64,000 bases of DNA from Mesorhizobium sp. B2-8-5 (GTDB lineage: Bacteria > Pseudomonadota > Alphaproteobacteria > Rhizobiales > Rhizobiaceae), in contig NZ_CP083951.1 in assembly GCF_006440675.2 (NCBI RefSeq), forward strand, positions 868,001-932,000, read 5' to 3'. The first letter of the stretch is position 1; every line of letters starts with the position of its first letter. This document shows, in pieces, positions 16,378 to 54,018 of the stretch. Under the pieces are notes generated by a model. The model had not been told where the DNA came from. It was given only the letters and a program-made list of their open reading frames with translations, and searched no databases. A program made the position numbers and the translations under genes.

Positions 16378-16462
16378 GCCCAGATGGCGGAATTGGTAGA
16401 CGCGCACGGTTCAGGTCCGTGTTCCGCAAGGAGTGGAGGTTCGAGTCCTCTTCTGGGCACCA
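16378..16462 (+). tRNA. tRNA-Leu (anticodon CAG)
   Basis: An 85-base cloverleaf: acceptor GCCCAGA pairs with TCTGGGC, then discriminator A and an encoded CCA. The anticodon stem CACGG/CCGTG encloses loop TTCAGGT with anticodon CAG, reading CTG leucine codons. The variable arm (TTCCGCAAGGAG) is long, as expected for a class II leucine tRNA, and the T arm is GGAGGTTCGAGTCCTC. A direct repeat begins at its last base. Confidence 0.96.
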
Positions 16463-16830
16463 TCCTTCGCTCTTCGAGCTTCGGATGGCAGGCCATCCCG
16501 GAGTTCCAAGAGCGAAGGGGTCGCCATTCATCCCGACTGCCAACGGGATGCAAGTCTCAACCTTCGCGATTAGCCGTAAGCTTCCAAACTTCGTCATTCC
16601 AGGGCGGAGCAAGGAGCGAAGCGACGCGCGCAGACCCTGGAATCCATGCCGTGACGTCGAGGCGTTGCAGCGGTTACAGAATTCCGCTCCGTTGTACTAT
16701 ATGACCCGCGTCACGGCATGGATTCTCGGGTCAAGCCCGAGAATGACGACATGTGGCCGTTGGCCCAATCTCCCCTTCCGGTCCGTCTCCGAACAAGCCG
16801 CTCCAAACCCGGCGACCGGTTTGGTTTTAA
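16462..16830. repeat. Direct duplication, copy 1 (contains a family A repeat)
   Basis: Begins at ATCCTTCGCTCTTCGAGC directly after the tRNA CCA and runs through a full family A palindrome to CCCAATCTCCCCTTCCGG. It matches 16873-17225 almost base for base at an offset of 411, then 400 after an 11-base deletion in copy 2. The copies differ by scattered substitutions, so the duplication is not an assembly artefact of identical sequence. No gene is seen in it. Confidence 0.88.
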
Positions 16831-32243: not shown

Positions 32244-32301
32244 CTTCGTCATTCCAGGGCGGAGCAAGGAGCGAAGCGACGCAGCGCAGACCATAGAATC
32301 C
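32244..32301. repeat. Left part of a family A repeat, interrupted by the IS110 element
   Basis: CGTCATTCCAGGGCGGAGCA through GACCATAGAATCC, stopping exactly where the element starts. It joins to ATTCCGTGACC at 33414, restoring GAATCC-ATTCCGTGACC as in intact copies. Confidence 0.88.
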
Positions 32302-32320
32302 TGTGTGTTGGTTCTGGTGT

Positions 32321-32465
32321 ATGGTTTGAAGTGGGAAGGAGACCGAATGAATCCTGGTCGTCCTTTCGGACAGGCCGTGGCATGGCCCGGTCCCTTCCCA
32401 CCGGTGAACCATCAACCTGAACAGTTGCACGGGGCTGTTCTAAGCAGACCCCGCACCACAGGAAG
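32321..32465 (+). ncRNA. Predicted bridge RNA (seekRNA) of the IS110 element
   Basis: Two structured loops are readable. Loop 1: 32321-32345 pairs with 32388-32412 (ATGGTT/GAACCAT, GTGGGAAGG/CCTTCCCAC, GACCG/CGGTC), topped by a TCCTTTCGGA hairpin. Its 5' strand holds GAATCC (32349-32354), identical to the left target flank 32296-32301. Its 3' strand holds GGCATGG (32379-32385), complementary to CCATGCC of the repeat arm. Loop 2: CGGGG-CTG pairs with CAG-A-CCCCG around TTCTAAG. It is preceded by ACAGTTGC (32421-32428), identical to the element's right end 33405-33412, and followed by CACAGG (32457-32462), complementary to the left end CCTGTG. This is the target-loop/donor-loop order known for IS621. 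Confidence 0.82.
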
Positions 32466-32475
32466 AGGCGTGGAC

Positions 32476-33402
32476 ATGATAGCCCAGAACTATGTCGGCT
32501 GCGACATCTCAAAGCAGTGGCTCGATTTTTTTGATGAGACAAGTGGCCGTCTTCGGCGCATCGACAACCAGGCCGACGCGATCGCGGCGTATGTGGCGGG
32601 CCTTGATCCCAGTCGGGACTTCGTCGTCATGGAGGCGACGGGCGTCCATGACCGGCTTCTGCGCCATGCGCTGGCCAAGGCCGGCGTGCCGTTCTCGCGG
32701 CACAACCCAGCGCATACCCACCACTATGCGAAGTCGACGAGACGGCGGGCCAAGACCGATCCTCTCGACGCCAGGATGCTGAGCGACTACGGCCGTCGCT
32801 ATCAGCCTGAGGCCGAGCCGGCGCCGCGCGAAGAAGTCGAGCGGCTTCAATCGCTTGCCCGCTACCGCGATCAACTGGTCGAGATGCGGGCAACGGCGAA
32901 GAAGCACCTCGCCGAGGCCTTCAATGAGATCGTCATTGCCGATCTGGAAGAAACGATCGCCTACCTCGACACGCGCATCAAGGCGATCGAGAGCCAGATT
33001 GCCGAAGTCATTCGTCAAGCCGAGGACACCGCCCGCGATTACACGCTCATGGTCTCCGTGCCCGGTGTCTCCAAGGTCGGCGCATTCTCGCTGCTGGCGC
33101 TTCTGCCCGAGCTCGGCCAGCGCTCACCCAAGGCGATCGCGGCACTGGTCGGCCTGGCCCCGTTCGACAACAAAAGCGGCAAGCTCAACCGCAGGAGCCA
33201 GATCCAGGGCGGGCGATCACGCGTGCGCCGCGCTCTCTACATGGCAGCCCTCACCGCCATTCGAACCTGTGAGCGCTTCAAGACCTTCTACAGCGCACTT
33301 GCTGCCCGCTCCGGCTCCAAGAAGCTCGCCATCATCGCCGTCGCAAGGAAGCTCCTGGTCGTCCTCAACGCCATCATGCGCGACAAAACCGCATTCGCAT
33401 GA
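32476..33402 (+). CDS. IS110 family transposase (DEDD + Ser recombinase)
   Basis: A 308-residue recombinase. The N-terminal RuvC-like DEDD domain shows Asp in YVGCDISKQWLDF, Glu in VVMEATGVHDRLL and the Asp pair in RRAKTDPLDARML. A coiled middle (about 120-190) leads to the Tnp20 domain with SVPGVSKVGAFSLLALLPEL and LVGLAPFDNKSGKLNRRSQI, including the likely catalytic Ser, then GGRSRVRRALYMAALTA. The ATG at 32476 follows GGAAGAGG; GTG at 32470 is an alternative. The reading frame is complete and undamaged, so the element may be active. Confidence 0.94.
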   Translation: MIAQNYVGCDISKQWLDFFDETSGRLRRIDNQADAIAAYVAGLDPSRDFVVMEATGVHDRLLRHALAKAGVPFSRHNPAHTHHYAKSTRRRAKTDPLDARMLSDYGRRYQPEAEPAPREEVERLQSLARYRDQLVEMRATAKKHLAEAFNEIVIADLEETIAYLDTRIKAIESQIAEVIRQAEDTARDYTLMVSVPGVSKVGAFSLLALLPELGQRSPKAIAALVGLAPFDNKSGKLNRRSQIQGGRSRVRRALYMAALTAIRTCERFKTFYSALAARSGSKKLAIIAVARKLLVVLNAIMRDKTAFA

Positions 33403-33413
33403 ACACAGTTGCC

Positions 33414-33548
33414 ATTCCGTGACCTAAGAGCGTCGCGGCGGTGCAGAAAAACCTCTGTTCTGCACCGCCTTTACCCTTCGCGCGAGGTCACGGAATGGAT
33501 CCTCGGGTCTCCGCGTCCGCTTCGCTCCCGCTCCGCCCGTGGATGACG
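33414..33548. repeat. Right part of the interrupted family A repeat
   Basis: ATTCCGTGACCTAAGAGCGT begins directly at the element's edge. It contains the central GTGCAGAAAAACC / TTCTGCACCGCC stem, the right arm GGTCACGGAATGGATCCTCG, and the cap GCTTCGCTCCCGCTCCGCCC with GTGGATGACGAAG. Confidence 0.88.
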
Positions 33549-53859: not shown

Positions 53860-54018
53860 CGTTATCCTCGGGCTTGACCCGAGGATCCATTCCGTGACCG
53901 ACGCCGAAGGGCTCAGCGGTACAAAATTCTGTAAACGTTGCAATGCCTTAGCGTCACGGAATGGATTCCAGGGTCTGCGCGCGTCGCTCCGCTCCTTGCT
54001 CTGCCCTAGAATGACGAC
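53860..54018. repeat. Palindromic repeat family A (ATTCC-arm form)
   Basis: CGTTATCCTCGGGCTTGACC and GAGGATCCATTCCGTGACC on the left; CGTCACGGAATGGATTCCAG with GTCGCTCCGCTCCTTGCTCT and GCCCTAGAATGACGA on the right. Its left arm has the same GGATCCATTCCGTGACC form as the site hit by the IS110 element. Confidence 0.85.

Follow-up and report, generated by a model that had tools for sequence, protein, structure and literature searches.

An IS110-group element of Mesorhizobium with a predicted IS621-type bridge RNA, inserted in a palindromic host repeat

Bridge RNAs have been predicted in 85.7% of IS110-group elements (PMC11208160, PMC11208158). In IS621 of Escherichia coli, which has a CT core, the RNA is encoded at the left end of the element and is 177 nt long, with a 5′ stem-loop followed by a target loop and then a donor loop; the target repeat is REP, a palindromic repeat of the host, and the promoter lies across the joined ends (PMC11208160, PMC11208158). 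The cited accounts of IS621 also describe bulged A residues and a right target guide of 4 nt (PMC11208160, PMC11208158). In ISEc21, the RNA comes from an upstream non-coding region, likewise with a joined-end promoter, and its bottom-strand match lies 5′ of its top-strand match; its target is a conserved stretch within IS3 transposase genes, a 74-nt form was reported, and natural retargeting through a guide change has been described for a relative (PMC11187229). Four further IS110-family elements, specifically ISRm19, ISPpu9, ISPpu10, and ISPa11, were inserted in REP sequences in 4/4, 7/7, 7/7, and 6/6 cases, respectively, and ISRm19 of Sinorhizobium was among the IS110 elements found in REP sequences in 2006 (PMC1525189). 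An IS110 element that targets a repeat is thus not new (PMC11208160, PMC1525189).

The element described here lies in a 64,000-nt stretch of the Mesorhizobium sp. B2-8-5 genome, referred to as the window, and very probably moves by bridge-RNA-guided recombination. It is like IS621 in the left-end position of the RNA, the succession of target and donor loops, the order and strand sense of the guides, the 4-nt right target guide, the bulged A residues, the catalytic residues, the promoter across the joined ends (here a prediction), and the choice of a palindromic host repeat, although the repeat is a different one; it is unlike IS621 in its CC core and in an RNA predicted at about 145 nt without the 5′ stem-loop. 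Compared with ISEc21, the upstream location, the joined-end promoter (again a prediction here), and the arrangement of the two target matches are alike, whereas the target and the reported RNA form differ. The REP-associated elements belong to other hosts and other repeats, and are likened to this one by their insertion sites, not by their sequences. The present element has a CC core and probably a shorter RNA, and its copies give an informative record of guide use within one genus. Because bridge recombinases are under development as tools for programmable insertion of DNA, natural elements that combine a compact RNA with a CC core and a large number of scorable insertion sites are useful material. 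The Mesorhizobium copies are also a natural archive of the importance of individual guide bases: one base of the left guide goes with target choice, whereas the fifth right-target base does not. Literature listings on Mesorhizobium IS110 elements and palindromic repeats and on rhizobial bridge RNAs contained no entry naming the element, which does not prove it unpublished.

The element and its host repeat

The element is intact and extends from core CC to core CC (window positions 32300-33413). The two CC dinucleotides (32300-32301 and 33412-33413) are common to both junctions, as the earlier note on this DNA had stated. On the left, the core together with the preceding GAAT forms the 3′ foot of the host repeat (32296-32301, forward strand, as are all features below unless stated); on the right, the end of the element, ACAGTTG (33405-33411), serves as the left donor and is followed by the core and right target flank, CCATTCCGTGAC (33412-33423), also in the host repeat. 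A recombinase of 308 aa (32476-33402) with Pfam matches to DEDD_Tnp_IS110 and Transposase_20 occupies most of the element, and the non-coding ends are 174 nt on the left and 9 nt on the right, the long-left and short-right arrangement of the IS110 group. The recombinase contains both the DEDD RuvC-like domain and the Transposase_20 domain with the catalytic serine. Residues D10, E53, D95, D98, and S234 were invariant among 32 aligned proteins and aligned with the catalytic D11, E60, D102, D105, and S241 of IS621 (PMC11208158). In a PDB sequence search, only two solved structures matched at E ≤0.001: the ISCro4 transposase (PDB 9t56; E 2.7e-27), the closest by sequence and a likeness known from the protein alone, and IS621 (E 1.4e-25). 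The nearest named relatives belong to Mesorhizobium, and relatives with 60-80% identity come largely from short metagenome contigs.

The host genome is a single contig of 6.46 Mb with six copies of the element at 98-100% identity, which suggests recent movement; a search of a plasmid collection gave no match. All six copies lie inside one Mesorhizobium palindromic repeat. This genome has 64 sites with its intact target, ACCNNNGRATCCATNCCGTGAC (19 of them the GAATCC variant), compared with zero occurrences of the backwards pattern. The target repeats are often arranged as inverted pairs ∼75 bp apart, some ∼400 bp apart, like composite REP elements, and such pairs are also present inside the window, for instance at 16628-16737 and 53880-53980. 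The only RNA gene detected in the window by Rfam gathering score and ARAGORN was a tRNA-Leu (anticodon CAG) at 16378-16462.

Across the genus, a search by the RNA stem with the guides left free recovered 62 copies in 21 of 146 genomes. Their left flanks were GRATCC in 58 copies, AAATCC in two, and GAGACC and ACATCC in one each, in agreement with the host-repeat targeting that had been proposed. An earlier genus-wide junction pattern was not trusted alone, being restricted to sites with ACC nine bases ahead of the end of the core; the flank-free stem search added nine copies, including both with AAATCC and the one with GAGACC, and the ACATCC copy had already been found. At the left junction of one copy (L135, in G074), the flank GAGACC of the repeat takes the place of GRATCC, and the repeat's own GGATCC is missing. 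The sole copy of the 62 with a left flank outside the host repeat (L060/L138, on contig 10 of G067) is flanked by GGAACATCC.

The predicted bridge RNA and its promoter

Sequence comparison gives good support for a bridge RNA of the IS621 type, having two target guides and two donor guides, in the non-coding left end (32302-32475). The predicted RNA of about 145 nt (32331-32475) would start at the first stem, as judged from the predicted −10 and the fold. The target-loop stem has a 5′ arm (32331-32345), composed of GUGGGAAGG, a bulged A at 32340, and GACCG, and a 3′ arm (32388-32401), composed of CGGUC and CCUUCCCAC, both supported by compensatory changes. Within this loop are the left target guide, AAUGAAUCC (32346-32354), whose final six bases (32349-32354) equal the flank GAATCC; an inner hairpin (32355-32377), supported by the fold and by compensatory changes; and the right target guide, GGCAUGG (32379-32385), of which the apparent working part, judging from the flanks of the copies, is AUGG (32382-32385), pairing with CCAT. 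The second loop holds the left donor guide, ACAGUUGC (32421-32428; ACAGTTGC as DNA), the same as the right end ACAGTTG-C; a hairpin (32430-32453) with two compensated positions; and the right donor guide, CACAGG (32457-32462), the complement of CCTGTG. All four guide segments are therefore where the earlier note had placed them. When the 174 nt were shuffled 50000 times with dinucleotides preserved, the two target guide matches, with order and spacing, arose 214 times, and the donor pair and the full set of four arose 0 times each.

The 174-nt left end folded better than 200 of 200 dinucleotide shuffles (z −4.1), and the first stem-loop was strong by itself (z −3.5). By energy alone, the second, donor stem-loop was not significant (z −0.6, a fold equalled by 53 of 200 shuffles); the support for its inner hairpin comes from compensatory changes, and its outer stem consists of 3-4 bp only. 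The two proposed stem-loops thus hold for the fold as a whole and for its compensatory changes, but not for the energy of the donor loop taken separately. In an alignment of 27 distinct left ends, 21 from the genus and six from five other genomes, seven of the 32 predicted pairs had at least one sequence changed on both sides with pairing kept. For several of the distant left ends, MAFFT displaced the 3′ arm of the first stem, so some of the broken pair cells are artefacts. When the arms were anchored by a script, which leans towards structure because it chooses the best-pairing position, each of the six distinct arm pairs formed the 9-bp outer stem with eight or nine of nine positions paired, and two positions of the donor hairpin were compensated. 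The first stem has bulged A residues, as do its inner hairpin and the donor hairpin. Rfam gave no match at the left end.

A putative −35 hexamer, TTGCCT, exists only once the ends are joined, being composed of TTG (33409-33411), the core CC, and T (32302); the predicted −10, TATGGT (32320-32325), lies 17 bp from it. Among spacings of 15 to 19, a spacing of 17 gave the best −10 match (3 or 4 of 6) in 10 of 10 junctions without a tie, judged by consensus match only; these junctions comprised four from the genus, five from other lineages, and that of G659. A start about six bases past the predicted −10 would fall at the first stem, which would leave ∼145 nt and no room for a 5′ stem-loop, and the bridge RNA is accordingly predicted to be, and probably is, shorter than that of IS621.

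By analogy with its family, the recombinase would excise the element as a circle joined at CC, and the junction sequence suggests that end joining would create the promoter from which ∼145 nt of the left end may be transcribed. Comparison of the copies supports a model in which the first loop would pair with the target: its left guide would bind the bottom strand of GRAT-CC, and its right guide AUGG the top strand of CC-AT. The second loop would pair with the joined ends of the element, ACAGTTG-CC-TGTG, as indicated by the sequence and one compensated change, and the recombinase would then exchange strands at CC, as in IS621. The palindromic repeat whose 3′ foot serves as target has dozens of copies, so the element would have many sites in its host.

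Guide bases and target use within the genus

The right target guide had been read as the seven-base GGCATGG, complementary to CCATGCC in the host repeat. CCATGCC does exist there, at 12 of 20 GAATCCATNCCGTGAC sites, but it flanks none of the six copies in this genome, of which five have CCATTCC and one has CCTTTCC on the right. Among the 31 copies in the genus with known right flanks, 18 have CCATGCC, 11 CCATTCC, one CCATACC, and one CCTTTCC. The fifth right-target base followed the host background, being G in 13 copies of 24 vs. 14.2 expected; these 24 are the earlier-found copies in genomes with a counted background, without the three in G100, the single copies in G099 and G106, and two later finds in G074. 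This base is thus unselected in the genus, so that the working right guide is about AUGG, and the right target guide of IS621 is also 4 nt (PMC11208160, PMC11208158). A 7-nt working right guide in the genus was ruled out by the flanks of the copies and by the background frequency of the fifth base. A meaningful excess of T at the fifth base in this genome was also rejected: none of the six copies has G (P 0.09 against all 64 sites), and the chance is lower against GAATCC sites alone (7/19 with T), but that subset was picked post hoc. The earlier proposal that specificity could be predicted from the sequence alone accordingly holds in part, in that the guides are in place and the host repeat is matched, but specificity is not fully readable from one sequence because the fifth right-target base lacks a guide preference. 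The same note had named as contrary evidence other copies lying where the guides do not match, and for this base such copies were found.

The left guide varies by one base within the genus. The 15 copies with guide GAATCC have flanks of GAATCC (11), AAATCC (2), GGATCC (1), and ACATCC (1); the 46 copies with guide GGATCC have GGATCC (39), GAATCC (6), and GAGACC (1); and the one copy with guide GGATCT has GGATCC. With the repeats of the same genomes as background, and with the three flanks other than GRATCC dropped, guide-A copies had GAATCC flanks in 11 of 12 cases vs. 4.1 expected (P = 5e-5), and in this genome alone the count was 5 of 6 (P = 0.010). Guide-G copies had GAATCC flanks in 5 of 35 cases vs. 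5.9 expected; these 35 of the 46 come from the first junction search and from genomes with a counted background, leaving out three in G100 (one with GAATCC), one in G099, and seven from the flank-free search. Because guide G can face C or T and guide A only T, the A/G pattern is as rG:dT wobble predicts, and an rG:dT pair is tolerated in IS621 (PMC11208158). We give roughly even chances to the full proposal that G in the left guide permits use of both GGATCC and GAATCC through rG:dT wobble, that A restricts use to GAATCC, and that the bridge RNA of this clade, with its CC core, has been shortened by lack of the 5′ stem-loop.

A possible though less probable explanation of the association between guide and target is shared ancestry or duplication of repeats, without wobble pairing. 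Guide-A copies number just 15 and are restricted to three genomes, and may all descend from one change, in which case the guide would have changed just once; some copies, specifically L002 and L004, also share the surrounding repeat over ∼130 bp on the right. Set against this, most of the copies have different left flanks upstream of the junction and so look like separate insertions, and the background was drawn from the same genomes. Past the shared ∼130 bp of host repeat, the right flanks of L002 and L004 diverge; their left hairpin arms appear to have been swapped, a hint that repeats have recombined with each other.

Guides, targets, and donors across seven lineages

Seven lineages were compared, consisting of the window element and relatives in six genomes with 43-46% protein identity and other targets; junctions were read by comparing copies where several were present (three genomes). 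Match scores at non-core positions, taken as means over copies and summed over the seven lineages, were 38.2 of 42 for left guides and 29.2 of 35 for right guides on their own flanks, vs. permuted means of 20.7 and 16.6. Own pairing had the highest combined score, a value that 2 of the 5040 permutations attained (2 for the left guides by themselves and 6 for the right); the second of these counts because G288 and G344, which it swaps, have identical guides. The alignment of homologues, suggested earlier as a check, thus found target guides that co-vary with their flanks as well as compensated stems, and with an intact recombinase of the IS110 type it bears out the proposed IS621-type organisation. 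Among the left guides, the match was weakest for that of the window element, at 3.8 of 6 on its own flanks vs. 4.0 on the flank of G659, and the right guide of G375 scored 3 of 5 on its own flank vs. 4 on those of two other lineages. In G288, G344, and G371, the right guide matched at all five non-core positions, so whether a longer guide is used may vary from lineage to lineage. All seven lineages, the window element included, have a CC core; the CT core of the narrow IS621-like subgroup is absent.

Donor guides matched the joined ends at six of six positions in six of the seven lineages and at five of six in G288. In G659, the left end CCTATG is accompanied by a right donor guide of CAUAGG, where the others have CCTGTG with CACAGG, and the change is therefore compensated; in G288, the left end CCTGTA with CACAGG is an uncompensated donor change. 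These observations bear on a reading that we consider unlikely, namely that a shorter RNA of ∼70 nt, mainly the first stem-loop and similar to the ISEc21 seekRNA, guides target choice, with the second loop processed off or of minor importance. ISEc21 has its guides in the same order in a 74-nt seekRNA, of which 58 nt sufficed (PMC11187229), and of the two stem-loops here the first is much the more stable, whereas the second loop is the most conserved portion of the left end and keeps its donor match in 6/7 lineages with one compensated change. That the recombinase alone recognises the palindromic repeat, with the left end an untranslated leader and the flank similarity incidental, is very improbable: many copies do lie in one repeat family, as is also reported of IS elements from other families without known guide RNAs (PMC1525189), but the guides change with the targets between lineages, target use within the genus goes with one guide base, and the four ordered matches never arose among the shuffles.

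In bridge-RNA-guided recombination, the base after each 3′ guide is predicted to pair with the other DNA after strand exchange (PMC11208158). Inspected by eye, the right target guide is followed by C, facing donor G, in the window and its six relatives. The right donor guide is followed by A where target position 7 is T (window and G659), by G where position 7 is C (G288, G344, G371, and four of five G264 copies), and by G where position 7 is T, a wobble pair, in G375 and one G264 copy. At the left junction of a reverse-strand copy in G264 (L127), a partial left end of the same element is present, and the copy begins inside its left target guide. This looks as though the target-like DNA of the guide itself had been struck by an insertion, with the two copies then recombining.
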